Source: a virus. From it: 24,185 bases of DNA. The stretch spans positions 1 to 24,185 of IMG/VR virus record IMGVR_UViG_3300043403_000217. One strand, given 5' to 3'. Shown in pieces: positions 458 to 23,131 of the stretch (position 1 is the first letter of the stretch; each line of letters begins with the position of its first letter). Under the pieces are notes generated by a model. That model was not told the origin of the DNA, searched no databases, and saw nothing but the letters and a program-made list of their open reading frames with translations. The position numbers were made by a program, and so were the translations under genes.

Positions 458-561
458 AACAAGTATTTCTCTAGTTTAGTTTGTAAAGAAATAAAGCTAT
501 AAAGTAGTCACGAGTTAAAGCTAAGATTCCGCGTTCGACTCGCGCTAGAGAAATGCTTGTT
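458..561 (+). ncRNA. Candidate structured RNA with 17-bp closing stem, tRNA-like
   Basis: The arm AACAAGTATTTCTCTAG (458-474) is complementary to CTAGAGAAATGCTTGTT (545-561) over 17 consecutive pairs, with a single U-G wobble. Inside, CGCG-TTCGACT-CGCG (530-544) forms a hairpin whose loop matches the TTCRANN form of a tRNA T-loop. It stacks directly under the long stem, as T and acceptor stems do. TTTAG (475-479) may pair with CTAAG (521-525). The 5' part AGTTTGTAA resembles a D-loop, but no convincing anticodon arm exists and no CCA follows the stem. It lies 31 bases before tRNA-Asn and may share its transcript. It may be a decayed tRNA or a distinct small RNA. The strand is chosen from the T-loop sense and the tRNA. 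Confidence 0.55.
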
Positions 562-1305: not shown

Positions 1306-1551
1306 TTACAAAAAACAATCTATAGTTATTTTTTGACCATACATTTTTTTTAATTCAGTAGAGTAATTTTCAATAAATGCTTGAGCATACAGCATATTAA
1401 CTTTTTTATTTTCCTCGTTTTTCCAACGATGAACAGTTGATTTTTTTACCCCAATCTTTTTAGATATTTGCAAAGCGGTTTCTTTTTCAAGAAGTTTTTG
1501 AATTACGTCTTTTAAGTAAATCTGAAATTTCTTCGAGCACTTCTTTTGCAT
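1306..1551 (-). CDS. Small helix-turn-helix DNA-binding protein (Cro/XRE-like)
   Basis: This 81-residue basic protein has a helix-turn-helix pattern at about residues 25-46. A helix containing TALQISKKIG is followed by the recognition-helix-like VKKSTVHRWKNEE. Such single-domain proteins are typical phage Cro or excisionase-class regulators. The start lies inside the preceding gene, 65 bp before that gene's stop, and has its own ribosome site, AGGAG, within the upstream coding sequence. That points to independent initiation or coupling. It is predicted to bind operators in the divergent region 1730-1845. Repressor and Cro roles cannot be separated from sequence alone. Confidence 0.75.
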   Translation of the reverse strand: MQKKCSKKFQIYLKDVIQKLLEKETALQISKKIGVKKSTVHRWKNEENKKVNMLYAQAFIENYSTELKKMYGQKITIDCFL

Positions 1552-1729
1552 TTAATTTATCTCCTGATTTTTGTAATATTTTTCTTAAAGTTTCTGGCTT
1601 TGGTATGTTATTTTCTTTTTTGAGAGCGTCCAAAAAAGTCGAATACGGAATCTCCAAATACTTTGCAGTTTCTTTTAAAGTATCAAAGTTTTTGCTTGTT
1701 TCTAATAAATAGTTTTTTATTAACTTCAT
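1487..1729 (-). CDS. Small helix-turn-helix regulator, first gene of leftward operon
   Basis: This 80-residue protein has an N-terminal helix followed by an XRE-like helix-turn-helix at about residues 16-37 (DTLKETAKYLEIPYSTFLDA). A lysine-rich helical tail follows. The AGGAG ribosome site sits six bases before the ATG. It is transcribed leftward from a promoter with a consensus TATAAT at 1754-1749 and diverges from the early rightward operon. The layout resembles a phage genetic switch. It lacks the C-terminal oligomerisation or cleavage domain of CI repressors, so if it is a repressor it is of a minimal type. The product assignment is by motif only. Confidence 0.75.
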   Translation of the reverse strand: MKLIKNYLLETSKNFDTLKETAKYLEIPYSTFLDALKKENNIPKPETLRKILQKSGDKLNAKEVLEEISDLLKRRNSKTS

Positions 1730-2765: not shown

Positions 2766-3100
2766 GTAAAAAGATAATAGACAAGTTATATCTTATCAAA
2801 ATTTTAACAAAAAAAAGAAAAAAATTTTTAAAACTTAACTTTTCGTGGTGTCAAAGCGAAGATATTTTAATAATTATTTATGAAAATCTTTTGACAAAAA
2901 ACTACCATGAAAAAAATATTTTAAATATTTTGGGCGATTTCTCTATTTCAACTCTTCTTGCGCTAGCAACGATAGATAAAAACTTAAAAGAAATTATTAG
3001 AGAAAATTTCTTTTTAGAAAAAGAAATGACAAAGAAATGGATAGAGTATTTTTCAGAAGACAAACAGTATTTTATAGAAAAGGGGTTGATAAATGAGTAA
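2762..3100 (+). CDS. Hypothetical early protein sharing the WxIGD-family C-terminal motif
   Basis: This 112-residue lysine-rich protein is not recognised over most of its length. Its last 21 residues (KKWIEYFSEDKQYFIEKGL) clearly resemble the C-termini of the 117-residue repeat protein and of the small frame at 4781-4891. This suggests a shared terminal module in otherwise different proteins. It overlaps the upstream gene by ATGA and the downstream RecT-like gene by 8 bp, so it is firmly within the early operon. Functional inference is limited to association with the recombination genes. Confidence 0.7.
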   Translation: MSKKIIDKLYLIKILTKKRKKFLKLNFSWCQSEDILIIIYENLLTKNYHEKNILNILGDFSISTLLALATIDKNLKEIIRENFFLEKEMTKKWIEYFSEDKQYFIEKGLINE

Positions 3101-3776
3101 TGAACTAATGAACGTTTCTGACATGCAATTGTTTGCTGATAGTATAGCAAAATCAGGTTTGTGGGGCTTATCTACTCCGCAACAAGCGCTTTCTTTAATG
3201 TTGCTTGCTCAAGCCGAAGGAATGCACCCTGGGATAGCTATTAGAGACTATCATATTATTAACAATAAACCTGCTTTAAAAGCTGACGCAATGCTTGCAA
3301 GATTTCATAAAGCGGGCGGGACGGTTAAATGGATTGATTACGATTCAAAATGCTGTTCAGCTACTTTTACTCATCCTCAAAGCGGTTCTTTAACAATAAA
3401 ATGGACCATTGAAATGGCTGAAAAAGCGGGAATCGCAAAAGGGCCTACTTGGTCTAAGTATCCTCGTCAAATGCTTAAAGCTAGAGTTATTAGTGAAGGA
3501 ATAAGAACAACTTACCCTGGCGTAGTTGTTGGTCAATATACTGAAGAAGAAGTTGAATGTTTTGAAGATACAACTTCATGTTTTGATGGAGAATGTGAAG
3601 ATGTTATTGAGCAAAATATAACTGATTCTGATAAAGAAAACATTTTAAATATCGCAAGAGAAGGTAAAAAGCAAGAGTGCTGGAGCGAAATTCAAAGGCT
3701 TAAGATTCAAGAAGGGCACCCCATTCGAGTTGAGTGCAGGGAAATATTTGAATCATTAAGAAAAAAGGAAAGTTAA
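3093..3776 (+). CDS. RecT-like single-strand annealing recombinase
   Basis: This 227-residue protein matches the pattern of phage RecT-family annealing proteins. It has an N-terminal helix with ADSIAKSGLWG, then LAQAEGMHPGIAIRDYHIINNKP (residues 39-60) and an AGGTVKW strand. TWSKYPRQMLKARVISEGIR (119-138) and a YPGVVVGQYTEEEV segment near 141-154 follow. The acidic, cysteine-containing tail is variable in this family. RecT proteins bind single-stranded DNA and anneal complementary strands during phage recombination and replication. The YqaJ-like nuclease two genes downstream is the expected partner. The start overlaps the preceding gene by 8 bp. Confidence 0.8.
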   Translation: MSNELMNVSDMQLFADSIAKSGLWGLSTPQQALSLMLLAQAEGMHPGIAIRDYHIINNKPALKADAMLARFHKAGGTVKWIDYDSKCCSATFTHPQSGSLTIKWTIEMAEKAGIAKGPTWSKYPRQMLKARVISEGIRTTYPGVVVGQYTEEEVECFEDTTSCFDGECEDVIEQNITDSDKENILNIAREGKKQECWSEIQRLKIQEGHPIRVECREIFESLRKKES

Positions 3777-4055
3777 GTGAGTGATTTATTTAAAGAAGCT
3801 CTTTCGCATTGTTTTAAAGATAAAAATGATAAAAGAACTTTACTTCTTAAATCAGAAAATATTTTTGCCGAAATTTTTTACAATGAAAATAAAGAAGAGG
3901 TTTTTTTTATTGAGTGTGATGAGTGGTGTAAATCAAAAAATTTTTTTATCGTTTCTGAAAATAAAGAAGGTTTTCAATGCAAGCATTGTAGAACTTTTTA
4001 TACGTTTTGTGAGAAAGCAATGCGTATAAAACGCTGGGAGTTGCCTGTTTTATAA
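3777..4055 (+). CDS. Small CxxC-containing protein between RecT-like and exonuclease genes
   Basis: This 92-residue protein starts at GTG directly after the RecT-like stop, with AAGGAAA about eight bases upstream. It is lysine- and glutamate-rich. A C-terminal Cys cluster, CKHCRTFYTFC at residues 68-78, preceded by Cys47 and Cys51, could form a zinc site. Its place between two recombination genes suggests an accessory role in DNA metabolism. No family is recognised, and the metal site is inferred only from cysteine spacing. Confidence 0.7.
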   Translation: MSDLFKEALSHCFKDKNDKRTLLLKSENIFAEIFYNENKEEVFFIECDEWCKSKNFFIVSENKEGFQCKHCRTFYTFCEKAMRIKRWELPVL

Positions 4056-4081
4056 AGTATTAAATAAATAAGGAGTAGCAA

Positions 4082-4699
4082 ATGATCGAACAACGCTCAG
4101 ACGAATGGCATCGCCAACGATACGGAAAAATAACAGCATCAGAAGTGCATAAGCTTATGTGTAAAGACGAAAAATGGTCTCAGACTGCTTTGTCTTACAT
4201 TTACAAACTAGCTGCTGAAAGAATGCTTAAACATGGCTGTATGATGCCAGGATTTTCGTCTGCTGCATGCGACTGGGGCGTAGAGCAAGAAGATAAAGCT
4301 CGTAAAGCTTATGAAGAAATAACCGGATATTGTGTTGATTTGGTTGGTTTCAAAACTTTAAAAGATAATAAATTTATTGGAGCTTCGGCCGACGGTCTTG
4401 TTAAAAAAACAATGTTTGACGATGAGTACATTTGTGGTTTGGAAATAAAATGTCCATTTAATCCAGAAAATCATATTAGATTTCTTGCGGAAAAAGAAAT
4501 ATGCAAAGAACATTATGCTCAGATTCAATTAAATATTTTAGTTCATGATATTGAAATCTGGGATTATGTGTCTTATTGTCCTTTGCTTGAGAAAAGCATA
4601 TGCTTCACTAAGGTTAAACGAGACAACGCTTTTATTGAAAAAATTCTTGTTCAGTGCGATAAAGCTTTGAAAGAGATTGAGTTGATTTGTTCTAAATAG
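4082..4699 (+). CDS. YqaJ/lambda-Exo-like recombination exonuclease
   Basis: This 205-residue protein has the YqaJ viral recombinase pattern. The N-terminal QRSDEWHRQRYGKITAS (4-20) is followed by WGVEQEDKARKAYE (65-78). The catalytic PD-(D/E)XK elements are ASADG with Asp104 and LEIK with Glu121 and Lys123, and the QIQ motif is at 147-149. Enzymes of this fold degrade one strand of double-stranded DNA to expose 3' tails for an annealing protein, here presumably the RecT-like protein encoded upstream. AAGGAG lies before the ATG. A 30-base piece of its 3' end (4634-4663) is duplicated, at 26 of 30 identity, at 4741-4770. Confidence 0.88.
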   Translation: MIEQRSDEWHRQRYGKITASEVHKLMCKDEKWSQTALSYIYKLAAERMLKHGCMMPGFSSAACDWGVEQEDKARKAYEEITGYCVDLVGFKTLKDNKFIGASADGLVKKTMFDDEYICGLEIKCPFNPENHIRFLAEKEICKEHYAQIQLNILVHDIEIWDYVSYCPLLEKSICFTKVKRDNAFIEKILVQCDKALKEIELICSK

Positions 4700-4707
4700 G
4701 CGTTAAA

Positions 4708-4891
4708 ATGAAAACTAAACTAAATATGATAAAAAGTTTTATTAAAAAAATGTTTGTTCAGTGCAATAAAAAAAGAAGAAATGATACATAAAATTAGTGA
4801 TTACGACCATATGGCAAGATGGATTAATAAATTGCCAAAAGACAAAAAATATTTTATTGAAAAAGGATGGATAAATATTTATGAAAACTAA
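4708..4891 (+). pseudogene. Chimeric remnant of WxIGD-family gene with exonuclease tail fragment
   Basis: A frame at 4708-4791 begins MKTKLNMIK, as in the proteins starting at 1846 and 4881. It continues FIKKMFVQCNK, which copies FIEKILVQCDK from the exonuclease tail, and stops after 27 residues. A second frame, 4781-4891, encodes 36 residues ending in ARWINKLPKDKKYFIEKGW, the C-terminal motif of the family. The two pieces are in different frames, so a full family protein is no longer encoded. The second frame could still be translated, since it runs into the next start. Recombination followed by deletion is the simplest reading. Confidence 0.6.
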
Positions 4892-5777
4892 AATAGATGT
4901 ATTAAAAGTATTACAAGACAATAAAGGAAAAATTTTTATAAGATATTATGATTTTTTTTTAAAAGTTTTAAGTAATTTCAATGATGATGATTCTTTTTAT
5001 AAAATAATGAATGCCGGTTTTTTTAATTCAGACTATACTAGTAATGCTTGTGAATATTTGTGTTTTTATTTTTCAACGTATTTTAAAGAAGAAGAATATT
5101 TAGAAGTTTTTAGCGATAAAATAAAACACGGTTATATTTCAATTAGGTTTGCAAAACAATTTAAAAACTACAGAAATAAAATGATTTTAAATATAAAAAA
5201 ATCTGAACATGCATTACTATGGGCGCATGAAATAGGAAATAAAGAAAAAATGAAGCCTCTAATAAATGATTACAAATCTGCATATGGATGGATAATGAAT
5301 ATTTGTCTTTGCAATAAAGAAAGAAAAGAAATGATAAATATAATAAAAAAACAAAGAGATATTATTTCAATTGATGAAATGCTTCATATGGATGCAGTTA
5401 ATTTTGTTGAAACTAAAGAAGAGGTTATTTATTTGGCAAAAAGAATTTCAGAAACAATTGAACTTAAATCAACAGACTGGGTTTTTAATTTAGATAAATT
5501 TTTTAAATTAAGGTATGTTACTTTTTACATTTTTAATAATCGTTCAGATTTTAAATTTTTGTTTGAAAACGAAGTTTTTAAAATTTTGTATTCTTTTCTT
5601 TCGTGCAAAAATCTTTATGAAACAGCTATGAATCTTTTTTCTGTGTCTTGTAATTATTCAGAAAAAAATCTTTTTTGTTTAAAATCAGAAAAAAATCTTT
5701 TTTGTTTAAAAGTTGATAAAAATTGTCGTGAAAAAATTTTAATTGATGTCGCAGATTTTTTGCAAAATAATCTTTAA
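4881..5777 (+). CDS. Large WxIGD-family protein of unknown function
   Basis: This 298-residue protein starts MKTKIDVLKVLQDNK, like the 117-residue protein at 1846. It carries one recognisable degenerate repeat, HALLWAHEIGNKEKM (about 110-124), followed by a weaker unit. The rest is aromatic- and lysine-rich and probably helical. A perfect 27-bp tandem duplication (5658-5711) adds a second SEKNLFCLK near residue 260-277. No enzymatic motif or membrane segment is visible. The start overlaps the small frame ending at 4891, and the preceding GGATGGATAAAT gives only a moderate ribosome site. The function is unknown. Its position ties it to the recombination cluster. Confidence 0.75.
   Translation: MKTKIDVLKVLQDNKGKIFIRYYDFFLKVLSNFNDDDSFYKIMNAGFFNSDYTSNACEYLCFYFSTYFKEEEYLEVFSDKIKHGYISIRFAKQFKNYRNKMILNIKKSEHALLWAHEIGNKEKMKPLINDYKSAYGWIMNICLCNKERKEMINIIKKQRDIISIDEMLHMDAVNFVETKEEVIYLAKRISETIELKSTDWVFNLDKFFKLRYVTFYIFNNRSDFKFLFENEVFKILYSFLSCKNLYETAMNLFSVSCNYSEKNLFCLKSEKNLFCLKVDKNCREKILIDVADFLQNNL
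5658..5711. repeat. Perfect 27-bp tandem duplication inside a coding sequence
   Basis: Bases 5658-5684 are repeated exactly at 5685-5711, adding nine codons (SEKNLFCLK twice) without breaking the frame. Each unit contains a run of seven A followed by TC and six T, which can form a hairpin and favours replication slippage. Confidence 0.9.
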
Positions 5778-7641: not shown

Positions 7642-9285
7642 ATGGAACATGATTATTCAGAAAGATTAAAAAAATATTCTGAAGCCGAAGTATACAAAAC
7701 AACAAAATTAACCATTTTTCAGCAAGCGTATAAATATTCATTTCCAGAAAGAAACCAATGGTTATTTATGAATTCAGCCGACGGCAAAATACAAAACACT
7801 CAAATTGACAAAACAATATACAGGTTTGATGTTACAGCAATTGAATCTTTGGAAGTTTTTTCTTCTAATATTCAAAATTGGTATGCAAATCCCTATAAAA
7901 AAATTATTCAGCTTATTCCAGGTCAAAGAATAGAAAAATATTTGAATGACAACATAAAAAAAGATTTGGACTATAATAGTGATCTAATAAAAAAATTTAT
8001 TGATTCTTCAAACTTTAATTCACAATTAAATTTAGCGGCAAAAGATTGTGGAATTTCAACAGGTCTTCTTCAATTAAAAAAATCAAACAACACTTTTAAC
8101 CCGCTTAAATTTGAAGCAATTCCAATGCACCAAGTGGTTCTTGGAGAGCATGACGGTAAAATAACAAATGTCTGGAGAAAATTTTTAGTTCCCGCTTGCG
8201 ATTTGGAATCAATTTGGCCAAACGCAAAATTATCAGACCGCATAAAAAGAATTATTGCAAAAGACCCAGATACTAAAATAAACATTTTAGAGTCAACAAT
8301 ATACTATCCATTAAATCAAAAAGATGAAAAATATGAATACACGGTTGATGACATGGATGGTCAGTTTAATTTGTTAACAATAAAAAAACGATTTAGTGAA
8401 TGGATTCCTTTTCGCTGGAGTGTTTCTCCCGGTGAAATTTGGGGAAGCGGCCCAGTACTTCAAGTTTTAGATTTAATACGTATTGCAAATACCATGGCGT
8501 TTTTTGAAATACGATCAGCTGGTTATCAAGCGGCTAATGTATTAATGAAAGATGCTGAAAGCATAATTAACCCAAATTTAATAAAAATGGAGCCTGGAGC
8601 AATTATAGATGTAGCAAACACTTTAACTCCTCCGATTGTTCCGCTACAAGTTTCTGGCGATGTAAAATTCAGTCAATTAAACTTGTCTTTAATTCAACAA
8701 CAAATTAGAAATATGATGTATGCTGACCCAATTTCTCAAGATAATGAAAGAGAAAAAACAGCCACAGAAGTTCAAATTTTACAAGACAATTGGGTTAAAA
8801 AATCTTCTTCAAGCTTTTGGAGAATTCAAGATGAATTAATGAGACCCTTGGTTTCTAAAGTAATTTTAATGCTTGCTGATGAAAATTTATTAAAGCCAAT
8901 AATAACACCGAAAGGCCCTGTTTCATTTAATTTAGACGACGGCGATTTAGATATAGAAATACTAAATCCGCTTTATGACGCTTCTCAAAATGATGATGCA
9001 AATACGTTGCTTAGGTTTTATCAGTCATTATCTTTTATATTGCAAGGACCGCAAAATTTAGCATCTATTAATACAAAAGAAATTCCTGGTTATTTTGCTG
9101 AAAAATACAACATCCCTCAAATGTTAATAAAATCGCCAGAAGAAATAACGCAATCTGCACAAGATGCGTTAAATATTCAAAATCAGTTAAATCAACAAAA
9201 TAACGCTAACCAACAAAATAATGACCCAAACACTAATTTAGAACAAGCTAAATCTGGAGTTGGAATTTCTTCTTTTATGGAGTAA
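7642..9285 (+). CDS. Portal protein (head-tail connector, T7 gp8-like)
   Basis: This protein of 547 residues from the ATG forms the dodecameric portal through which DNA is packaged and to which the tail attaches. The N-terminus (YSERLKKYSEAEVYKTTKLT) and the following YSFPERNQWLF are typical of podovirus portals. The central PFRWSVSPGEIWGSGP (256-271) and REKTATEV (370-377) match conserved portal positions. The tail is Gln/Asn-rich (IQNQLNQQNNANQQNN), as in many members. An upstream TTG at 7630 is in frame, but GGA seven bases before the ATG at 7642 favours the ATG. The scaffold gene follows after two small genes, as expected. Confidence 0.87.
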   Translation: MEHDYSERLKKYSEAEVYKTTKLTIFQQAYKYSFPERNQWLFMNSADGKIQNTQIDKTIYRFDVTAIESLEVFSSNIQNWYANPYKKIIQLIPGQRIEKYLNDNIKKDLDYNSDLIKKFIDSSNFNSQLNLAAKDCGISTGLLQLKKSNNTFNPLKFEAIPMHQVVLGEHDGKITNVWRKFLVPACDLESIWPNAKLSDRIKRIIAKDPDTKINILESTIYYPLNQKDEKYEYTVDDMDGQFNLLTIKKRFSEWIPFRWSVSPGEIWGSGPVLQVLDLIRIANTMAFFEIRSAGYQAANVLMKDAESIINPNLIKMEPGAIIDVANTLTPPIVPLQVSGDVKFSQLNLSLIQQQIRNMMYADPISQDNEREKTATEVQILQDNWVKKSSSSFWRIQDELMRPLVSKVILMLADENLLKPIITPKGPVSFNLDDGDLDIEILNPLYDASQNDDANTLLRFYQSLSFILQGPQNLASINTKEIPGYFAEKYNIPQMLIKSPEEITQSAQDALNIQNQLNQQNNANQQNNDPNTNLEQAKSGVGISSFME

Positions 9286-9288
9286 ATT

Positions 9289-9444
9289 TTGGACAAAACA
9301 ATACCTGCTGCTCAAGATGTTTTAGACTTGTTAAACTTATTGATCAAATCTAATATAAAAGAACCTGTTATATTTGATGTGGTTTATGACGATGAAGAAG
9401 TAAATAATGAAAAGGAGTTAAATAATGGCTTGGGATCAAAATGA
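9289..9444 (+). CDS. Small acidic protein with TTG start, between portal and Bbp19-like gene
   Basis: This 51-residue frame starts at TTG three bases after the portal stop. GGAG lies six bases upstream, overlapping the end of the portal gene. It begins DKTIPAAQDVLDLLNLLI and ends in an acidic stretch with DVVYDDEEVNNEKE, with composition like its neighbours. It fills an otherwise empty 139-bp gap and overlaps the following gene by 20 bp. No family is recognised. The non-ATG start leaves some doubt. Confidence 0.55.
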   Translation: MDKTIPAAQDVLDLLNLLIKSNIKEPVIFDVVYDDEEVNNEKELNNGLGSK

Positions 9445-9664
9445 TTTTGTTTACTTGTGTGGAATGGTTTTTTGTAACGAATACGGTGATAAATTATTAA
9501 ATATTTTAAAAGAATATTACGTTGATACTCGTTATGAAAGATCTTTGATGGAAGAAAACAACAACAAGGTAATATGGATGCTTGGACAAAGAGACATGGT
9601 TCAAAAAATATTTATTGCTTTAGATGAGTTTAAACGCAAAAAAACAAATGGAGACTTTAAATGA
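9425..9664 (+). CDS. Bbp19-like phage protein
   Basis: This 79-residue protein has the Bbp19-like pattern: an N-terminal aromatic segment, a GDKLLNILKEYY helix, an NNNKVIWMLGQRDMVQKIF segment (46-64) with the conserved L-G-Q-R-D, and a basic end. Such proteins sit between portal and scaffold or capsid in many podoviruses; their role is not established. AAGGAG lies seven bases upstream of the ATG, and the stop overlaps the scaffold start by ATGA. Confidence 0.7.
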   Translation: MAWDQNDFVYLCGMVFCNEYGDKLLNILKEYYVDTRYERSLMEENNNKVIWMLGQRDMVQKIFIALDEFKRKKTNGDFK

Positions 9665-10395
9665 CAGAATTTGTTAATGAAAATCAACAACATTTACAAG
9701 AAATTCATGGTGAAAATAAAAGTTTAAATGAAGTCGGTATTGCTAAAGAGACACTTCAAAAAAGCCAAGATACACCAGAAAGGCCAGACTGGCTTATGGA
9801 CAATTTTAAAACTGTTGAAGAACAGGCAAAAGCAGCCAAAGATTTTAGAGAAGCTTTATCAAAAAAATCTCCTGACGCGCCAGAGGAGTACAAGTTAAAT
9901 TTAGACCAAAGTTTAGTTGAAAAATATGGGCTAGAAGACAACGAAGTATTAAAAGAATTTTCTGATTTAGCAAAACAAGCTAACATTCCTCAAAAAAGTT
10001 TTGATAAATTAGTTGATTTTTACTTTTCAAATTTTGAAAAACAAGAAGCTTATGAAAATGAAATTAAGAAACAGTCAGATGAAGAAACAAAAATAAAGCT
10101 AGGCGAGCACTGGGAAGATAGAATTTCAAACATAGAATCATGGGCAGAAAAAAATCTTCCTGAAAATCTATATTCGCGTTTTTCAGAAATGTGCCAAACC
10201 GCCGAAGATGTTGAAATGTTTGAAGCATTGAAAGGTTATGTTTACGAAAAAACATCAATCCCTGGCAATTTAAGAACAGAAAGAAGTCCAATTAATCGAG
10301 ACGCTCTGATGGAAAAAATGAACGACCCAAAATACTTAAGAGACGCTGAATTTACAAGGATTGTTGAAGAAGAATACCGAAGATTATCTTTCTAA
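9661..10395 (+). CDS. Capsid scaffolding protein
   Basis: This 244-residue, acidic, mostly helical protein has the typical podovirus scaffold layout: RPDWLMDNFKTVEEQAKAAKD (40-60), the DAPEEYKLNL segment, then AKQANIPQKSFDKLVDFYF and a long charged helix. Scaffold proteins guide capsid protein assembly into procapsids and leave before or during packaging. It follows the portal and Bbp19-like genes, as in T7-like phages. Here, however, the capsid gene is not next: it lies 7.4 kb away on the opposite strand. The stop interlocks with that of a convergent gene, and a run of seven T follows (10396-10402). Confidence 0.78.
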   Translation: MTEFVNENQQHLQEIHGENKSLNEVGIAKETLQKSQDTPERPDWLMDNFKTVEEQAKAAKDFREALSKKSPDAPEEYKLNLDQSLVEKYGLEDNEVLKEFSDLAKQANIPQKSFDKLVDFYFSNFEKQEAYENEIKKQSDEETKIKLGEHWEDRISNIESWAEKNLPENLYSRFSEMCQTAEDVEMFEALKGYVYEKTSIPGNLRTERSPINRDALMEKMNDPKYLRDAEFTRIVEEEYRRLSF

Positions 10396-12794
10396 TTTTT
10401 TTGTTTTAAATAAGCGGGTGGTGTTTCGTCAAATACTTTTGATAATTTTTTAATTGTTATTTTGTTTGACGAATAAAGTTTTGAGTCAATAATTTCTTGT
10501 ATAGCTTGGTCTCTATTTAATTTAGATTTTTTCATTATATCGGCTATTTTTGTTTCAAGACTTTGATTGATAATGCTTGTTGGATCACCAAGTTCATTAA
10601 AAGTTACTTTAATTGGTTGATATTTTTCGCCAACTTTTATAGAAATTGGAACATTATTCTGATCAGCATAAACTAAAGAGCCGCCAGTATATTGAATCCA
10701 ATGACCTTGCTCTATTACTTGTTTTTTATATTTTTCATTAACCAATTTTTGAGAAGCGCCTTCAACACTTGCGCGCGGTGAACGTATTTCTGAATTTTCT
10801 AAATTTGAAACTATTAAACTTAAAGATGCTGTGGTATTATTAATGTCTATTGCACGGCCAAACATGTCTAATTTTGGAACAGTTATAGGGTTGTTGTTAA
10901 AAGATGTGGCTTGTTTTTGTTTAGTTAGCAAATCTGAAATAGCTTTTTCAGATGCATCTTCCGCTGTTAACCCTTTGTTCCAAACTAAATAAGATGCGTA
11001 TTGAGTAGCTGGTGCAAACAAATCTGATTCAGTTCTTGAAACGTCTACACCTTGTAATTTGTATTCATTTAATTCGTTTTTTAAATTTGCTAAAACCATA
11101 TTTTGAAGACTGGCAAATCCTTTGCTATCTCCAGTAGAGTTTGCAACCAAATCTTTGTAATCTGATAATTTTATTTTTGTTGAGTTTAAAAATTCACCAG
11201 ATTGGGTGTATGTTTCCGGGTTATTGTACATTGTTAAAGCTAATGGGATTTCTGGTTTTAAACCATTTTTTTTCATATCTCGCATAGCAAGATTAAAATT
11301 GTATTCGCTTCCCATATCGTTTCTTAATTGTAAAATTTCAGAAAACGATTGATCGGGCATTGCATTATTTAATGCATCTGCTAAATCTGATGCTTTCTTT
11401 TTTGTAAGCAAAGAAATGTTGCCCTCATCATAACCCATAATTTTTTGTTTATTTATTATGTATTTGAACAAATCAGTATGATCAGTATTTTCCGGGTCTG
11501 TAAACAGTTTGTCTTTTATTGCTTTATAATCTTTGTCTTGAATAATTAATTGAACCGGGTCCTCTTTTTTTAAAGTCGCATATCCATTTAATTTTTTAAT
11601 TTTATCGCTTAAAACATTTTGCGTTTCGGAAGGAAACTTTTCATTTAAATCGATGTTATTTAAATCTTCTTGAGCTTTGTTTATGTAATCTTGTTGTTGA
11701 GTAATGGGAACGGACTTAAAAAACTCAACGTCGCTATATGCTTGAGCGCCCAATAAAATTTTATGATTAAGCCTTTCATTCTCAACTGGAGATAAATTTG
11801 CTTGCAAAAAATCTAACTTTGTTTGATTTACTTTTCCAGAAGAAAACGATTCATTGTATAAATCATTCTCAACTTCAACATGATTTGTTTTTGTTATACC
11901 AAGCTGTTGTGAATAATTTTGTAAAATAGTATTAAATTTAGTTTGAAGTGTTTTTTTCTCCGTAGGCGTAAAACTTCTGTTAACATCTTTAGACTTCATA
12001 ACAGATTCTTCAAATTTTTTAGCAGTTTGTAATCTTTTGTCCAAATTTGGTATGTTTGGGTCTTCAAATATTCTCTGGTAATCGCCTAGAGATTTGTATT
12101 CAATTAAAGATTGATCTAATAAGTTTTTTCTTCGGATGTATGCTGTTCCGCTTAAATTTGAAGATACAGCATCGTTTTTTAATGTGTTTGATAATTGAGC
12201 ATGCAAAGTTGCCGCTTTTGAGTAATTTCCTTCTTCTACAGCATTGTTCATTTCATTTAAGTTTTGATCGAAACTTTGAGTCAAAACATTAATCATTGAT
12301 TTTTGTTTTTTATTAGTTAATTCTTCATTTAATGAAATAAAATTTTCTGTTTGCTGATGAGTTAATAGATTTTTAATGTACAATCTATTTTCTGTTGGCG
12401 TCGTTGCAATTGTGTTTTTAATATAATCTTCTGATTGCTCTTGGTATTTTTTTAATTTTTCATCGTCAATGTTTATTTTTGCATCAGATTTTAACAAAGA
12501 AAGTTGTTTAAATGCATCAGAAGAAATTACCATTTTATTTGCTTCTAAAGCAGTTTTATTAAATTCTTGCTGTGCTTTTGTATATGCAAAAGGAAGTTTT
12601 ATGTTTTTATTTTCACCATAAACAGCGCCTTCTGATTGTGCTTTTTGTAAATTTATTTGGTCTGCTTCAGAAAATGCTTCTTTAGATACATTGCCAAAAA
12701 GCTCAGAATAAGCGTTAAATACTGATGACTTGTCAACAACCGGGCTATCAGTTGATATTGCTACAGTATTTGAATACTTTGGAATTTCTGCCAT
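10392..12794 (-). CDS. Large internal virion (ejection) protein, gp15-like position
   Basis: This 800-residue protein is rich in Asn, Gln, Lys and Ser and predicted to be long helical, without signal peptide or enzymatic motif. It lies after gp11-, gp12- and gp14-like genes, the position of the large internal core proteins of T7-like podoviruses, which are ejected into the host to form a DNA conduit. Its start follows the previous stop after one base, so translation is probably coupled. It ends the leftward late operon, and its stop codon interlocks with that of the scaffold gene. Assignment rests on position, size and composition. Confidence 0.6.
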   Translation of the reverse strand: MAEIPKYSNTVAISTDSPVVDKSSVFNAYSELFGNVSKEAFSEADQINLQKAQSEGAVYGENKNIKLPFAYTKAQQEFNKTALEANKMVISSDAFKQLSLLKSDAKINIDDEKLKKYQEQSEDYIKNTIATTPTENRLYIKNLLTHQQTENFISLNEELTNKKQKSMINVLTQSFDQNLNEMNNAVEEGNYSKAATLHAQLSNTLKNDAVSSNLSGTAYIRRKNLLDQSLIEYKSLGDYQRIFEDPNIPNLDKRLQTAKKFEESVMKSKDVNRSFTPTEKKTLQTKFNTILQNYSQQLGITKTNHVEVENDLYNESFSSGKVNQTKLDFLQANLSPVENERLNHKILLGAQAYSDVEFFKSVPITQQQDYINKAQEDLNNIDLNEKFPSETQNVLSDKIKKLNGYATLKKEDPVQLIIQDKDYKAIKDKLFTDPENTDHTDLFKYIINKQKIMGYDEGNISLLTKKKASDLADALNNAMPDQSFSEILQLRNDMGSEYNFNLAMRDMKKNGLKPEIPLALTMYNNPETYTQSGEFLNSTKIKLSDYKDLVANSTGDSKGFASLQNMVLANLKNELNEYKLQGVDVSRTESDLFAPATQYASYLVWNKGLTAEDASEKAISDLLTKQKQATSFNNNPITVPKLDMFGRAIDINNTTASLSLIVSNLENSEIRSPRASVEGASQKLVNEKYKKQVIEQGHWIQYTGGSLVYADQNNVPISIKVGEKYQPIKVTFNELGDPTSIINQSLETKIADIMKKSKLNRDQAIQEIIDSKLYSSNKITIKKLSKVFDETPPAYLKQKN

Positions 12795-12795
12795 T

Positions 12796-13239
12796 TTACA
12801 CCGTTAATTCTGTTGAAGGATTATGATAATAAAACGAAGTAGCGTCTTTACCAAGCTTTAATGCGCCCTGTGCAACTTGAATTGGAATCGTATCGTTTAC
12901 ATTATTTATGCTTTGATCAAACGCGGCATTTGTAAAATAACTATTAAGATTGTCAGCATTTACATCGCGAGAATATTCATCCAAAGTGTTTTGTTGGATT
13001 GCTAAAAAATTTGAGCTAGAAAACGAACCTTGGTTTGCTGCTTGAACAGCCATTTGATGAGAAAACAATTTTTTAAGATTACGATTTCTTTCTATGTTAC
13101 GTTGCCCTTGAGCAAGCTTTTCTTGTTCAGCTTTAATTTTTAATGAAGCAGACTGCGCTTCAGAGGCTTGAACAGCGGAATAAGTACTTGCAACAGATGC
13201 TAAGGCGCCTGCAATCATAAACGCTGTAAAGGGGTCCAT
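12796..13239 (-). CDS. Small internal virion protein, gp14-like
   Basis: This 147-residue protein has a hydrophobic N-terminus (AFMIAGALASVASTYSAVQA), then a Lys/Gln/Glu-rich helix (KIKAEQEKLAQGQRNIERN) and a Phe/Asn/Ser region. It matches the layout of T7 gp14-type internal virion proteins, which enter the outer membrane on infection. GGAG lies about eight bases upstream. It is 2 bp downstream of the nozzle gene and directly before the large internal protein, the usual gene order. Confidence 0.68.
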   Translation of the reverse strand: MDPFTAFMIAGALASVASTYSAVQASEAQSASLKIKAEQEKLAQGQRNIERNRNLKKLFSHQMAVQAANQGSFSSSNFLAIQQNTLDEYSRDVNADNLNSYFTNAAFDQSINNVNDTIPIQVAQGALKLGKDATSFYYHNPSTELTV

Positions 13240-13241
13240 TT

Positions 13242-15230
13242 TTAAATCTCCACTTCAAAACCTATGCCTAAAATCAAAAAATCAACTGGCATGCTTTGTG
13301 TAATAACTAACGTGCTTTCTAAATCCCATCCCGCTTCATTTCCTTGGTATGAGCCTGTCAAAAGCGGAACGGGCAAGTTTAACACATTATTACCAAAATA
13401 CATTTCAGGAACTCTTGAGCCGCCAACAATTAAACCGTTTGTTTTGTAGTAAGAAACAAATGACCTAACCATTCGTTTTGGCAAATACAATCTGCCACTT
13501 TCAATGATGTAAACGGGCACTGTTTCTAAATAAACATTAAGCTCAATGCCAACCAAAATTTCCTTTGAGGGCCTTTCAATAGTGATTGAACCATTTGTAA
13601 CCACCCTATCTTGCAATATAAAACCATCGCCAATAACCCAAACTTTAACTCCTTCTAAGCTGTTTAAATTAGAAACAACCGTTTGAGGTGACGAGTACGA
13701 ATTATATATTGTTGAGTCCATTTTAACATCAAATGAAAATTCTTCCAACGTATATATGTACTGCCCATTTACGTATCTTTGAACAGTACAATAAATGTTG
13801 TTATCTACAGAGATTACTTTTAAAAACTTGCCTTGGTTTGGTTTAAAATCATCAATTTTAGTTGCGTCTTGACCGGTAAATCTAAGAGACCAACCCAGTA
13901 TTTGATCGTCTAAATCTGATTGTAAAGTTGCAATTGAACCATCTTCATTAACGACAAATAGATAATCAGAATCGTCGTTATTGCTTCCTATCAATGCCGC
14001 CATCGAAACTGGGTTATTTATCAAAATAGAGGCGTATTTTGATGCGCTAATTGATTTGTAATATGTGTCTGCGCCAGAAATAATTAAAGACATTATTTCT
14101 TGGCCACCTTTTTTTACATAAAAAGTTTGGTCGTCTAAAATAACGGGCGTAACATCTTCAGAGCCTTTTTTTGTTTGTATTCTTATTGAAGAGTTCGATG
14201 CTGTAAACGGTTCATCCCAGGACTGCATTGTGCTAAATTCTGAATTTTCGCAAAATATTTGCAAAGTTTTATCTGCAACAATGTTTAAAATTTTATCAAA
14301 TTTATTTGAGCCAATAGTGTAAATGATGGCGTCGTCATCGTTAGATGAGCCTTGGTCAAAGTTTGTTAAATCGTTAATTTTTGAACAAAAAATAGTTGAT
14401 GGCAAAGAAGTTGTTCCACCGAAGGTAAGCCGACCCTCGTACAAACAAACAGATTGCGGCCAGCCTCTGTCTTCTGAAAATGCTATTTCACCAAGAAAAC
14501 AAGAAGCTCCAGAAACACCCGTTCCTGTTGTTAGCAAAGAATCGTCAAAAGGGTTTATTACGTCAACTGTTACAGATGTTGATGAAGTAAATCCTGTTAT
14601 TCTAGCAACGCCCAACGTGGCTGTTAACCCGATTGATAAAAACAACCCCCCAACGTGCGCCAAATCAAAAACTGCAGTATTACAACTTAATGTTCTTCCA
14701 ATTCCTACACTGTTATCATTAATTTCAAATATTGAAGTGTAATAATCTTTTCTGAAGTCAAATGCGGGCTGATTTTTAAAAACAATCTGTCCAAATGTCC
14801 AGTCAATGTCGCTGTTTCCATTGTGCGTTAAAATGTTTGGCGCACTATCTTTATGAACCAAATACAAAATGTTTTCTGACTGACAATATTTTAGCTCAGT
14901 TATTTCATTATCGGTGTAAGAAATTGTAATTGTATGCACTAAATTTGTGTAAAAATTGTTAAATCTACGATAAATTTTTAATGCTTCGTTTGTAAAAACG
15001 ATTAAATATTTTTCTCCATTTCTTCCAACAAATTCAGCTAAATTATGATTTTGTTCAATAAAATCGTGAAAAATTGTTCCGTGGCATTTTTTAACACCAC
15101 CTTGTTTCCGTATGTAAACGTTTCTAAGTTTTTTCGCTGATTTATAATACGGTGCCCAGTCCACGTTTGCAAACATGCGCGGGTCTAATTCGCCATGTGA
15201 GAAATTATTTTGTACGTACAAATTTGTCAC
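13242..15230 (-). CDS. Tail tubular protein B-like (tail nozzle) protein
   Basis: This 662-residue protein begins with a pattern typical of podovirus nozzle or stabilisation proteins: NNFSHGELDPRMFANVDW (8-25), YYKSAKKLRNVYIRKQGGVKK and the CHGTIFHDF segment. The rest is beta-rich, as expected for gp12-like proteins that form the distal tail tube. It starts at GTG, overlapping the gp11-like stop in a GTGA junction. It is shorter than T7 gp12. It is followed by internal virion genes, as in T7-like phages. Confidence 0.78.
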   Translation of the reverse strand: MTNLYVQNNFSHGELDPRMFANVDWAPYYKSAKKLRNVYIRKQGGVKKCHGTIFHDFIEQNHNLAEFVGRNGEKYLIVFTNEALKIYRRFNNFYTNLVHTITISYTDNEITELKYCQSENILYLVHKDSAPNILTHNGNSDIDWTFGQIVFKNQPAFDFRKDYYTSIFEINDNSVGIGRTLSCNTAVFDLAHVGGLFLSIGLTATLGVARITGFTSSTSVTVDVINPFDDSLLTTGTGVSGASCFLGEIAFSEDRGWPQSVCLYEGRLTFGGTTSLPSTIFCSKINDLTNFDQGSSNDDDAIIYTIGSNKFDKILNIVADKTLQIFCENSEFSTMQSWDEPFTASNSSIRIQTKKGSEDVTPVILDDQTFYVKKGGQEIMSLIISGADTYYKSISASKYASILINNPVSMAALIGSNNDDSDYLFVVNEDGSIATLQSDLDDQILGWSLRFTGQDATKIDDFKPNQGKFLKVISVDNNIYCTVQRYVNGQYIYTLEEFSFDVKMDSTIYNSYSSPQTVVSNLNSLEGVKVWVIGDGFILQDRVVTNGSITIERPSKEILVGIELNVYLETVPVYIIESGRLYLPKRMVRSFVSYYKTNGLIVGGSRVPEMYFGNNVLNLPVPLLTGSYQGNEAGWDLESTLVITQSMPVDFLILGIGFEVEI

Positions 15231-15805
15231 GGTAATACATCGCCATATTTAGAAGCTAAAATTGGGTTTGATTTAATTACAAGAGATGGTTGTTGTTGGG
15301 AATCAATTGTAATCGCTCTTATTTTTTCCATTTTTGACTTGTTTGCAAAAGCCATTGCCAAATCTGGTTTTTGAGTAATTGGCATAGCAAAAAGTTCGGC
15401 CATTTTATAGATTAAATAAGATTCATAATAAACGGGTAGCAAATCTTCTTTAACATAATGCGTGTAATACAACTCAAGGTTGTCGCTATAGTTTGAATAA
15501 AGTACATCTCCGTATATTTTGTAATCACAATATGGTTCTAAACTGTACGATCTAAGAAAATCGCTTGGTAACTTGTAAGCATTATTATAGTAATTAAACA
15601 TTTCACTATCTGAAATTTTTACTAACTTAAATTTTTTTAAAGCAAACAACCATAGGTGATCGCAAAGAAAATTGGAATAAAACAAATCATACAAAGATGA
15701 AGAACGTTTAATTACTTTTGAAGAATCATTATCAATAGCTTGTATTTCGTCTTGCCCAAGCAACAAAAATGCAGCGTTTAAAATTCGTATTTTTGATGTT
15801 GCCAT
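15227..15805 (-). CDS. Tail tubular protein A-like (adaptor) protein
   Basis: This protein has 192 residues from the ATG, starting MATSKIRILNAAFLLLGQDEI, the pattern of gp11-like tail adaptors (short helix, LLG, then a helix with C-D-H-L-W at about residue 50). The YNNAYKLPSDFLRSY segment and the late YLIYKMAELFAMPITQKPDLA helix also fit. Adaptors join the portal to the nozzle. An in-frame TTG two codons upstream is less well placed relative to GAG, so ATG at 15805 is preferred. It precedes the nozzle gene with a 4-bp overlap. Confidence 0.75.
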   Translation of the reverse strand: MATSKIRILNAAFLLLGQDEIQAIDNDSSKVIKRSSSLYDLFYSNFLCDHLWLFALKKFKLVKISDSEMFNYYNNAYKLPSDFLRSYSLEPYCDYKIYGDVLYSNYSDNLELYYTHYVKEDLLPVYYESYLIYKMAELFAMPITQKPDLAMAFANKSKMEKIRAITIDSQQQPSLVIKSNPILASKYGDVLP

Positions 15806-15831
15806 ATTCAATACTCATTATTTGTTTTAAA

Positions 15832-17223
15832 TTAAACAAATTGAACATTGCCAAGATTCAAGTATTGAACCTGTGTTCCAAGCACTGCTTGTAAATTATC
15901 TCCATACATCGAAGACGACAATACTCCACTTGATGTTGCGCTCAATATTATTCCACCGAAGCCTACGCCAGTTCCAACAGTTCCACAGGTTACAACAGAA
16001 TTTGTGGCATTAAAAGATAATGCGTTAATAGTATTAAGTCTATAATTACTCAATGTTGCAAATGAACCTCTAAGAACTAATGCTGCGTTACTTATTATAT
16101 TATTTAAAATATAACCCGTGTCTGAATCATGAGTATTAAATATTCCATTTGCATTTGAACATATGCAATAATTACTAGTAAAAACTGAAGCACCGTATAC
16201 AGAATTAAGTGTTGCATATGGTTGTAACTGTATATTAACATTTAATGGTGAATCTTTATCCGCATAAACACCGACTGTATTTCCCCCGAGGGATGCAGAA
16301 AATATTGTCGTTGTAGAAATATCAGCAACTAAATTAGTTAATTTTCCATTGCTACCAGTTGTGATTGATGGCTTATTTACATCTCCAGAAAATGAACCTT
16401 TGAATTTAATATTTGTTGCATTACTATTTCCGAAATTTGCAACATTGTAAGTTTCGCTTTGATTAGCAATAAATTCAATATTATCATAAAAATCGTCATC
16501 ATTAGTTGTATGTATTCCGCATCCATTGGTCTCGCCTGTTTCATACCATTTTAAACCATTGGCTCTTACTGCAGTACCTCCAGTTGCTAATGTAACATTA
16601 TTTATTTCGTTTTCATTAACAATGAATATGTCATTAAGCGTTAATAAATTAAATGTAGTAAATGGACTTGGTGTTGGTGCTCTGAAAATTGCGCCACCTG
16701 ATGAATTATTTATTCTAATTTGTGATGTACCATAACTATTAATTTGAAGATTAAATGAATTAGAATTAGAAGAAATATATCCGTTTGTAATTCTCCATTG
16801 TGCATATTGATCAATTACAACCGGTGTTGAATTAAGCACAATATTTCCCACATCTTCGCACGATCCTGCAATAATTAAAAATTTTTTTCCATCTTGTAGC
16901 GCTTCTGAAACATTATCATATTGAGAATAAGGACCTCCGATTATTGCGTAATATGAGCCATCCCCTTCGCTTGAACTTATTGGGACAATTGTGACAGGTG
17001 TTACCCCATTTTCAGAAGTTACTCGACAATCTGCCCAATCAGTCTCATTAAAAATCCAAATTCTGTCATTTTTATAAATATCATTACTTAATTCGTTAAA
17101 ATATCCTGATGTTAGCATTGTATCTAAACTATCTGTATTTGAAGCGTAAGTTATGTAATCAGCGGCTGCGGGTCTGTTAGTAGCTCCGCCGATTATCCCG
17201 CAAAATTGTTTAATAAATGCCAT
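15832..17223 (-). CDS. Fibre- or spike-like virion protein with N-terminal decoration domain
   Basis: This 463-residue protein starts with about 80 residues related to the 167-residue protein encoded just upstream. Shared positions include G-(I/V)-(I/L)-(G/A)-G-(A/S)-T-N, then S-(N/D)-T-D and S-x-Y-F-x-E-L, then (R/K)-I-W-I. The remaining 380 residues are Asn-, Ser-, Thr- and Gly-rich with repeated short strands, compatible with a beta-helix or trimeric spike. Catalytic residues cannot be seen. AAGG lies about eight bases upstream of the ATG. A terminator separates it from the capsid/decoration pair, suggesting lower expression. It may be a head fibre or a receptor-binding spike. Confidence 0.65.
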   Translation of the reverse strand: MAFIKQFCGIIGGATNRPAAADYITYASNTDSLDTMLTSGYFNELSNDIYKNDRIWIFNETDWADCRVTSENGVTPVTIVPISSSEGDGSYYAIIGGPYSQYDNVSEALQDGKKFLIIAGSCEDVGNIVLNSTPVVIDQYAQWRITNGYISSNSNSFNLQINSYGTSQIRINNSSGGAIFRAPTPSPFTTFNLLTLNDIFIVNENEINNVTLATGGTAVRANGLKWYETGETNGCGIHTTNDDDFYDNIEFIANQSETYNVANFGNSNATNIKFKGSFSGDVNKPSITTGSNGKLTNLVADISTTTIFSASLGGNTVGVYADKDSPLNVNIQLQPYATLNSVYGASVFTSNYCICSNANGIFNTHDSDTGYILNNIISNAALVLRGSFATLSNYRLNTINALSFNATNSVVTCGTVGTGVGFGGIILSATSSGVLSSSMYGDNLQAVLGTQVQYLNLGNVQFV

Positions 17224-17237
17224 ATCAGTTGCCTTTT

Positions 17238-17268
17238 AAAATAAAGTGGCTGTTAATTTTGCAGCCAC
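17238..17268 (-). terminator. Rho-independent terminator between decoration and fibre-like genes
   Basis: Read leftward, GTGGCTG (17268-17262) pairs with CAGCCAC (17252-17246), seven pairs with four G-C, around a nine-base loop. TTTATTTT follows directly. It lies in the 58-bp gap downstream of the gene ending at 17282, and the next gene starts at 17223. It would let capsid and decoration proteins be made in excess over tail proteins if termination is partial. Confidence 0.75.
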
Positions 17269-17281
17269 AAATATTATTTAG

Positions 17282-17785
17282 TTAAAATGGGGATACAATC
17301 ATTACATTAACTACTGTATCATCTGCTGGGTCGCCGCTAAACCCGATAACGTAATTTCCAGTACCAGCAAATGCTTTTGTAATAGTGACTGGAACAGTAC
17401 CGGGTGTATTTATAGTAGCTATAACAAGATCTGTACTTAAAACACCTTCTAAAGTAACAGTTTCATTAGCATTGCCCCCAACGGTAGTGTAAATATACGA
17501 ATTTTTAATTACTGCCCCATCTTGTGGTAATTTTGTTACAGAAACAGAACTAGTTGTCACTGTATCAAAATAAACAAATACATATCCATCTGACGCCTTA
17601 ATCCAAATTTTTTGACCAACAGCAATAAGGGGATTTTCTAAGTTTTCACACAGCTCTAAAAAATAATCTGACGCAATAATAGTCGCAACATTATCTGTAT
17701 CGCTTATGTAAGACCAGTCCATCAATGCGCCGTTTGCGTTTGTAGAACCCGCTAAAACACCAAAATTTTTATAAACAAAACTCAT
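17282..17785 (-). CDS. Head decoration-like protein
   Basis: This 167-residue protein is encoded directly downstream of the capsid gene. The N-terminal domain (about 1-85) includes YISDTDNVATIIASDYFLEL and GQKIWIKASDGYVFVYF, a pattern common in small phage head-associated proteins and present in the next gene's N-terminus. The C-terminal half is a beta-rich Thr/Val stretch ending VVNVMIVSPF. AGGAG lies seven bases before the ATG. Its position between the capsid gene and a terminator suggests high expression, fitting a capsid surface protein. The function is inferred from context. Confidence 0.68.
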   Translation of the reverse strand: MSFVYKNFGVLAGSTNANGALMDWSYISDTDNVATIIASDYFLELCENLENPLIAVGQKIWIKASDGYVFVYFDTVTTSSVSVTKLPQDGAVIKNSYIYTTVGGNANETVTLEGVLSTDLVIATINTPGTVPVTITKAFAGTGNYVIGFSGDPADDTVVNVMIVSPF

Positions 17786-17802
17786 TTAATTTCTCCTGTG
17801 AT

Positions 17803-17824
17803 TATTCTTTGCTTATTCTTTGCT
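17803..17824. repeat. 11-bp perfect tandem duplication at the capsid gene end
   Basis: TATTCTTTGCT occurs twice in direct succession. Read leftward, the first copy encodes the last codons and stop of the capsid gene, and the second falls in the intergenic spacer before the decoration gene, which suggests a small slippage event that extended the spacer. Confidence 0.85.
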
Positions 17825-18661
17825 TAAGACACGAACCGCACCTAATGCATCAGTCACTAAAGCGCCGAAACTTGCAGATGAGACTGTTTCAGTTCTTTTT
17901 TCCTGAGGAACTGGAATCATTTGAACCATCGGGTCTTGTCTATAAACTATTGACATAGCGTCTCTAGCAAAACAGAAACTTGTTCTAATTCCATCCACAT
18001 CAATTGGCAAACCACCCTCCAACATATCTGGCATTACAATGATTTTAAAACCACCGAATTTTTCAGGATTAGAAGAAGGGGCTACTAACGGTTTTCCGTC
18101 GTTAAAAACAGCAGACGTGTATTCTGTTTGACCAAGCAAGTACCTAAAACTTTGCCAGGTTGTTACAAAGTACAATTCTTCAGTGTCAGCAGAATTTATA
18201 CCGAGCTGCACTCGTGCTTCGATTAACTTTTCAGTGGTTAAATATTCGCCGTTATCAGGAATAAAATTCGTAACAATACTTGGGTCTGTTCCTGCATTAA
18301 GAATATTTTGGTCTTCTCGACGACCCAAAGCTTTCGCATGGTTTTTTGCAAAAATTTCTAACGCGCTTGCGTTAAAATTTAATTGATCAAAATCACTGAT
18401 AGTAAGCTTTAATACGAAATCATCGTACGTAAGAATTGGAGCAGTAACAGTTGGATTAGAAGTTGGAATGTTAGAGTTGTTTGCACCATATGGCTGCATT
18501 ACAGACTGACCCATATACTTAAATTTGTATGCATCACCGACCGCGCCATGCATTTCATTGCATACATTCGCTAATCGTCTGTAAGATTGATATTTTTGTC
18601 TAAATCTGTCTGCAAATTGTACTGAATACGCCTGGGTGAATGGACTTTGTTGAATGGTCAT
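17813..18661 (-). CDS. Major capsid protein (HK97-fold type)
   Basis: This 282-residue protein matches podovirus capsid patterns. It has an N-terminal arm (FADRFRQKYQSYRRLANVC), a YDDFVLKLTISDFDQL segment and the helix HAKALGRREDQNIL (129-142), typical of capsid spine helices. TEKLIEARVQLG, ELYFVTTWQSFRYLLG and the late FGALVTDALGAVRVL follow. It forms the icosahedral shell. GGAG lies about ten bases upstream of the ATG. The leader of about 200 bp is unusually long for this gene-dense region and contains a potential long stem and a promoter. The partner scaffold gene is on the opposite strand. Confidence 0.87.
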   Translation of the reverse strand: MTIQQSPFTQAYSVQFADRFRQKYQSYRRLANVCNEMHGAVGDAYKFKYMGQSVMQPYGANNSNIPTSNPTVTAPILTYDDFVLKLTISDFDQLNFNASALEIFAKNHAKALGRREDQNILNAGTDPSIVTNFIPDNGEYLTTEKLIEARVQLGINSADTEELYFVTTWQSFRYLLGQTEYTSAVFNDGKPLVAPSSNPEKFGGFKIIVMPDMLEGGLPIDVDGIRTSFCFARDAMSIVYRQDPMVQMIPVPQEKRTETVSSASFGALVTDALGAVRVLSKE

Positions 18662-18698
18662 ACCATCTTACTCCGTAAAAATAATTTAATTAAAAGTT

Positions 18699-18780
18699 AT
18701 TTTCAAACGAGTAAGCCGGTAAGGAGTCTTCGCCCGCGTTTAAGGAGGCTTATACAAGTTATTCGGGAACGTTTTGAAAC
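18699..18780 (-). promoter_or_regulatory. Capsid gene leader with nested inverted repeats
   Basis: TAAGCC (18712-18717) is complementary to GGCTTA (18747-18752). Farther out, TTTCAAACG (18701-18709) nearly matches the complement of CGTTTTGAAA (18770-18779), apart from one extra base. The leader RNA could therefore fold into an interrupted long hairpin just upstream of the capsid ribosome site. The enclosed region is GC-richer than its surroundings and contains two copies of TAAGGAG (18719-18725 and 18741-18747). A role in transcript stability or processing is inferred. Confidence 0.4.
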
Positions 18781-18804
18781 CAGTATTTTTAATACTATGA
18801 TCTA

Positions 18805-18832
18805 ATATTACACGACATGATAAAAAAAACAA
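18805..18832 (-). promoter_or_regulatory. Candidate leftward promoter for capsid operon
   Basis: Read leftward, TTGTTT (18832-18827) and TAATAT (18810-18805) are spaced by 16 bp. TCGTG directly precedes the -10, as it does (with one extra base) in the early promoters at 1790-1818 and 2212-2239. It would give a leader of about 135 bases before the capsid start. It overlaps the weak terminator stem. Confidence 0.35.
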
Positions 18833-18841
18833 CTGTTTTTT
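18822..18841 (-). terminator. Weak terminator candidate after spanin genes
   Basis: Read leftward, AAAAAAC and GTTTTTT form a seven-pair stem around AGTT, followed by more T, 19 bases after the stop of the lipoprotein gene ending at 18860. Only one pair is G-C, so termination would be inefficient. It is nevertheless placed correctly between the lysis and capsid gene groups. Confidence 0.35.
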
Positions 18842-18859
18842 GGTTAAAAAATGTATAAT

Positions 18860-19162
18860 TTAATCTGATAATTTATTGATTGACTCAATTTTCATGTTTG
18901 ATTTGTGAATAGAGGCAACAAGATTTATAACATCTACACCTCGGTTTTTTGATTCATTAGTGCATTCTTGTAAATTACTTGGCAAAGGATGCGTGTAATT
19001 ACCAATCAATTTATGATGTTTGTTCTTAACTAATAAATGCTTTGGAACTTGATTGTTTTGAACTCTATAACTCGTCTTCATGCAGCCAATGGTTAAATTT
19101 ATCATCAGAAATATAGCCATTATTTTGCATAATTTTAATATAAACATCGCGATTTCCTTCAT
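18860..19162 (-). CDS. Putative outer-membrane spanin lipoprotein (Rz1-like)
   Basis: This 100-residue protein has a hydrophobic N-terminal signal ending in the lipobox-like L-T-I-G-C with Cys27. The mature part of about 74 residues is polar and Pro/Asn/His-containing. The -3 position is Thr rather than the usual Leu/Val/Ile, so lipidation is likely but not certain. The gene starts out of frame inside the inner-membrane spanin gene, overlapping it by 98 bp, the classical Rz/Rz1 arrangement. AAGGAAG precedes the ATG. Together the two would fuse inner and outer membranes at the last lysis step in a Gram-negative host. It may be longer than lambda Rz1 because the overlap is partial. Confidence 0.68.
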   Translation of the reverse strand: MKEIAMFILKLCKIMAIFLMINLTIGCMKTSYRVQNNQVPKHLLVKNKHHKLIGNYTHPLPSNLQECTNESKNRGVDVINLVASIHKSNMKIESINKLSD

Positions 19163-19355
19163 TTATGCTTCCTTTTCGTTCCATTTCAACTAAAACAACA
19201 TTTTCTTCTTCTTGATCAGATACAATCTCATCAATAATTGCTTGCTGTTGAGTGTGCTCTGCTTTTATTGTGTAATAATTATTCAATGAAGAAACAAAAT
19301 AATAAGACAATATTAAAACAATTGCATATACAAATAATTTTAAACTACTAAGCAT
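19065..19355 (-). CDS. Putative inner-membrane spanin (Rz-like)
   Basis: This 96-residue protein has an N-terminal membrane segment (KLFVYAIVLILSYYFVSSL, about 6-24) and a charged helical periplasmic part, the i-spanin layout. The start at 19355 is chosen because GGAGG lies seven to eight bases upstream. A start 11 codons further upstream is in frame but lacks such a site and would lie deeper inside the lysozyme gene. It overlaps the lysozyme stop by 8 bp and carries the Rz1-like gene in its 3' half. It is smaller than lambda Rz. Assignment rests on topology and gene nesting. Confidence 0.68.
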   Translation of the reverse strand: MLSSLKLFVYAIVLILSYYFVSSLNNYYTIKAEHTQQQAIIDEIVSDQEEENVVLVEMERKGSINEGNRDVYIKIMQNNGYISDDKFNHWLHEDEL

Positions 19356-21606: not shown

Positions 21607-21614
21607 TATTTTTC

Positions 21615-23120: not shown

Positions 23121-23131
23121 TTATTTCTCGC

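Follow-up and report, generated by a model that had tools for sequence, protein, structure and literature searches.

A probable relic copy of tRNA-Asn, with a long and near-perfect stem, beside a viral tRNA-Asn gene

Is the long hairpin that lies beside the tRNA-Asn gene of this virus a working RNA, a signal for its neighbour or what is left of a second tRNA gene? We analysed it within the window, that is, the whole stretch of the virus record (24,185 nt, linear, 32% GC). The reading we favour, at a probability of roughly 0.6, is that the gene for tRNA-Asn (or for a class I tRNA close to it) was duplicated along with its leader, and that the body of this copy decayed while its stem was perfected and extended. 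The locus comprises the following features:

458-561, + strand: the element, tRNA-derived and closed by a 17-bp helix (from helix pairing and alignment to tRNA-Asn)
455-466, + strand: copy of the tRNA-Asn leader (from the match of 455-471, which includes the acceptor start, to 581-597)
467-473, + strand: 5' acceptor strand, TTCTCTA (TCCTCGA in tRNA-Asn)
472-488, + strand: D-arm-like sequence TAGTTTAGTTTGTAAAG (TAGCTCAGTCGGTAGAG in tRNA-Asn), from an alignment that allows 472-473 to be assigned to the end of the acceptor or to positions 8-9
489-529, + strand: apparently decayed and expanded middle without a 5-bp anticodon stem, overlapping an imperfect internal repeat
530-544, + strand: T-arm-like sequence CGCG-TTCGACT-CGCG, recognized by motif and of low folding probability
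546-552, + strand: 3' acceptor strand, TAGAGAA (TCGGGGA in tRNA-Asn), the perfect complement of 467-473
553-561, + strand: ATGCTTGTT at the place of the discriminator and CCA, pairing with the leader at 458-466 with one G-U
581-592, + strand: leader of the intact tRNA-Asn, the second leader copy, matching 455-466
593-668, + strand: intact tRNA-Asn(GTT) with encoded CCA, the sole tRNA called in the window

Helix, internal fold and setting

Positions 458-474 (AACAAGTATTTCTCTAG) pair with 545-561 (CTAGAGAAATGCTTGTT) to give 17 bp with 70 nt between the arms, the single U-G pair falling at 464-555; an 18th pair, also U-G, is possible. Partition-function calculations gave pair probabilities of ~0.95-1.0 along the helix and 0.55 for its outermost pair, bearing out the first-pass annotation, which had described a 17-bp helix with one U-G around 70 enclosed bases. 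The same annotation held that such a helix was unlikely by chance, and this survives in weakened form. With G-U pairs allowed freely, 81 of 300 shuffled versions of the window contained a helix of at least 17 bp, so that length alone is weak evidence and the helix is less improbable than had been claimed. When Watson-Crick pairs were rewarded and G-U pairs penalized, however, it was the best helix in the window, its score being reached in 5 of 400 whole-window shuffles and in 4 of 3,000 shuffles of positions 1-900.

The T-loop-like hairpin that had been placed under the helix is present as sequence but disfavoured as a structure: its pairing probability is only ~6%, as against ~90% for a competing hairpin (511-516/537-542), relative to which the T-arm fold costs ~1.8 kcal/mol. 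The D-loop lacks one of the conserved GG pair, and the interior holds an imperfect repeat (483-499 and 507-523, 13 of 17 positions identical) that was equalled in 14 of 1,000 shuffles. A Rho-independent terminator was rejected as an identity for the element, the T run after the stem being missing.

Several other features of the window were recorded alongside. At the very end of the record, 1-134 recurs at 171-304 (134 nt, 98% identity, 170 nt apart), either as a real tandem duplication or as an assembly-end artefact, and a diverged third piece of this repeat lies at 389-418. Upstream of the element, at 321-350 on the + strand, a 12-bp hairpin (GACCATATCGAG/CTCGGTATGGTC) followed by GGGGTATTTT is terminator-like. 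Overlapping small leftward ORFs at 1306-1729 (- strand), one with HTH/CII-like matches, stand opposite a rightward RecT-YqaJ recombination module at 3093-4699 (+ strand), an arrangement that a temperate phage might have, although the proteins scanned yielded no integrase. Two uncharacterized ORFs, 1846-2199 and 4881-5777, share an N-terminal segment (16 of 39 residues identical, E 5e-6 in a single comparison) and may represent a small family of paralogues within the phage.

Likeness to tRNA-Asn and loss of the tRNA fold

Local alignment laid 455-488 onto the leader and 5' half of tRNA-Asn (GTcAACaAGTATTtCTC--TAGtTtAGTttGTAaAG), with a leader-plus-D-arm score that ~0.1% of 2,000 shuffles equalled and that none of 388 further segments of the window attained; for the whole element against tRNA-Asn, 1 of 2,000 shuffles scored as high. 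The first-pass description was incomplete in this respect, having overlooked both the D-arm-like sequence at 472-488 and the leader repeat at 455-471. The latter is the best match in the window to 581-597 (14 of 17) and lies directly 5' of the D-arm-like sequence; the next matches reach 12 of 17 on the same strand and 13 of 17 on the other, where one of the 13/17 matches is the element's own complementary arm. The GTTCRANTC motif occurs only twice in the window, at 533 and, in tRNA-Asn, at 645. The D-arm motif, which was composed from its two copies themselves, likewise occurs only at 472 and 600. The blocks of the element follow the order of a tRNA gene (leader, acceptor, D-arm, T-arm, acceptor), and over four ungapped blocks the element and tRNA-Asn agree at 38 of 50 positions. 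At 10 of the 12 differing positions a G or C of tRNA-Asn stands against an A or T of the element, the bias that relaxed drift should produce in DNA of 32% GC. The middle is less telling: over 475-529, which includes most of the D-arm, 113 of 2,000 interior shuffles were as tRNA-Asn-like in global alignment, a marginal result that leaves room for a parent among the other class I tRNAs. Against a panel of 48 tRNAs, global scores placed tRNA-Asn genes at ranks 1, 3, 4, 6 and 9, with a tRNA-Asp second.

Threaded as a tRNA, the element has acceptor pairs 1-72 to 7-66 of T-A, T-A, C-G, T-A, C-G, T-A and A-T, where tRNA-Asn has T-A, C-G, C-G, T-G, C-G, G-C and A-T. Both bases of pairs 2-71 and 6-67 are thus changed relative to tRNA-Asn, and 4-69 has gone from T-G to T-A, so that all five acceptor changes preserve pairing and do so purely with Watson-Crick pairs. 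The stem then continues for 9 bp past the acceptor into the leader, an extension that no tRNA needs.

This likeness is not matched by any present ability to be recognized as a tRNA. Searching Rfam at E values up to 10 gave no tRNA match in 458-561, the sole score at or above the gathering threshold being that of 593-665. ARAGORN made no call at 458-561 even when introns were permitted and its thresholds were set at 60%, on which ground an intron-containing tRNA was rejected. No tmRNA was called, which disposed of that candidate, and overlaps with microRNA families in Rfam fell far below gathering and were discarded as chance. The predicted fold of 458-561 contains no 5-bp anticodon stem, and neither CCA nor a single-stranded acceptor end is encoded, ATGCTTGTT at 553-561 being paired with the leader; the absence of an anticodon arm and of CCA had been noted in the first pass and is upheld, although CCA may still be added after processing. 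The element thus shows none of the marks of a functional tRNA (covariance score, four-arm cloverleaf, encoded CCA). It does show those of a pseudogene, namely significant similarity to a tRNA gene, D- and T-arm blocks included, together with loss of the tRNA fold as judged by Rfam, ARAGORN and the partition function.

We also searched for relatives. The exact 21-mer spanning the T-arm and 3' arm returned no homologue. A leader-plus-D-arm pattern gave 17 matches that on inspection were unrelated DNA or the intact tRNA-Asn genes of other phages, and a tRNA-Asn pattern gave four, all ordinary tRNA-Asn genes without the element. Queries with the neighbouring proteins (YqaJ, RecT, TerL and a 117-aa protein) led to no homologous element locus; the near relative L018, with a TerL 93% identical, covers only 9183-24185 of the window and hence not the element region. 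A covariance model built on the element and run on sampled phages raised above noise only the element itself and its own reverse strand, and other phage loci with tRNAs did not match the model. A weak, sub-threshold tRNA-like match (23.6 bits) at 1504-1574 of L016, a RecT-related phage, sits just past a 359-aa ORF resembling a tyrosine recombinase; this tRNA fragment is for that reason probably an attP in a tRNA gene and no homologue. An exact 47-nt tRNA-Asn pattern identified no host in a collection of bacterial and archaeal genomes.

Origin of the stem and rival explanations

Two processes can perfect and extend such a stem: selection on an RNA, and template switching, in which one arm of an imperfect hairpin serves the polymerase as template for the other. 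Template switching is documented to yield fully paired stems and several compensatory substitutions at a single stroke, and to correct pairs to U-A or G-C (PMC8794818). The element has near-perfect Watson-Crick pairing beyond the old stem and paired changes relative to its paralogue, the pattern looked for in a template switch. We favour such a switch on a relic because the rest of the element has drifted and the decoding arm is lost, only the inverted repeat being perfect and running past the old boundary. The preserved acceptor pairing could equally be the product of purifying selection on a structured RNA.

In the course of events that we infer, the gene for tRNA-Asn, or for a class I tRNA close to it, would first have been duplicated in tandem, leader included. 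The copy would then have drifted to the A+T-rich composition of the phage while its middle expanded, and a short template switch in replication (quasi-palindrome correction) would have copied the 5' acceptor strand and continued into the leader. This would have rewritten the 3' acceptor strand and turned the discriminator and CCA into the reverse complement of the leader, so that a single event would account for the near-perfect stem of 16 to 17 bp. Were transcription to read through from a promoter upstream, the hairpin would do no more than form part of the 5' region of the tRNA-Asn precursor.

The main competitor, itself unlikely, is a functional phage tRNA-like small RNA, stable and RNase-resistant, in which the long stem is joined to a T-loop-like module; it may engage proteins that bind tRNAs, for instance by acting as a decoy for host defences that target tRNAs, or be a stable RNA of the tRNA cluster. 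Its stem is the best in the window with pairing probability near 1, its acceptor changes preserve pairing, and acceptor, D- and T-like elements are all retained; two papers (PMC10264068, PMC11555353) also provide a precedent in phage tRNAs that counter tRNA-cutting defences. Against this, the T-arm is disfavoured in the predicted fold, the D-loop is incomplete, there is no anticodon stem and loop to serve as nuclease bait, and the differences from tRNA-Asn show A+T drift. A more specific version, a tRNA mimic that lost its decoding arm, doubled its acceptor stem and was kept by selection because it is stable, is expressed along with tRNA-Asn and acts as a decoy or binds proteins, we consider somewhat less likely again. 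The first-pass annotation had offered a tRNA-mimicking phage RNA as one of three options, for which we found nothing positive and, in the sampled phages and every other collection searched, no homologue.

It is doubtful, too, that the element is what remains of a tRNA of some other isotype, whether class II or another member of class I, that was the first gene of a two-tRNA cluster. The 87 nt from acceptor to discriminator are of class II length and a tRNA-Asp came second in the panel, but the D-arm is class I-like and the 14/17 leader repeat shared with tRNA-Asn points to duplication. We give still less weight to a role of the hairpin in processing or regulating the tRNA-Asn downstream, whether as RNase III/RNase P context or as a switch between 458-466/553-561 and 552-563/582-593. 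The second of these pairings, 12 bp between the 3' arm of the element and the tRNA-Asn leader, does exist, yet it arises because the leader is present in two copies of one sequence, and the stronger 17-bp helix would form first. The helix, moreover, ends 31 nt upstream of the tRNA and encloses tRNA-derived sequence, and other phage tRNA loci carry no match to the model; the processing signal suggested in the first pass is unsupported. Least probable is a chance inverted repeat in A+T-rich DNA. A comparable helix appears in about 1% of shuffled windows, but here it coincides exactly with a tRNA-like acceptor that frames D- and T-like blocks beside a tRNA, and the joint evidence disfavours chance.

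Of the three options first proposed, a decayed tRNA is the best supported, since tRNA-Asn offers a counterpart to each of its leader, acceptor, D-arm and T-loop while the tRNA score is lost. On this comparison of sequences a tRNA origin is well supported; the element is most likely a relic, not a novel functional RNA, and probably has no dedicated function. As a relic, it would illustrate how a decaying tRNA gene can pass for a new structured RNA, and how pairing-preserving differences and a perfect long stem, commonly read as proof of RNA function, can be the outcome of a single error in replication. A functional element would instead be, speculatively, a phage tRNA mimic of unusual shape.

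Comparison with known systems

Pseudogenes and degenerate tRNAs occur in phage tRNA clusters. Like them, the element is tRNA-derived, lies beside an intact tRNA, has lost its anticodon arm and CCA and falls below the thresholds of tRNA finders; ordinary relics, in contrast, lose stem pairing, whereas the element pairs perfectly along its acceptor and carries the stem on to 17 bp. YrlA (bacterial Y RNA-like, RF02553) is a tRNA mimic with a long terminal stem and resembles the element in joining such a stem to a tRNA-like module, but the family has no match over 458-561, its only hit (E 3.6) falling on 546-647, partly on the real tRNA. The tRNA cluster of phage T4 holds stable RNAs, species 1 and 2 (RNA C and D). 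The element, if transcribed, would resemble them in being a small non-tRNA RNA among phage tRNA genes. The template-switch hairpins of Monttinen and Loytynoja (2022, PMC8794818) were read from ancestral reconstruction, whereas the switch proposed here is read from a paralogue in one genome; the element shares with them a near-perfect reverse-complement stem, multibase compensatory changes and correction to Watson-Crick pairs.
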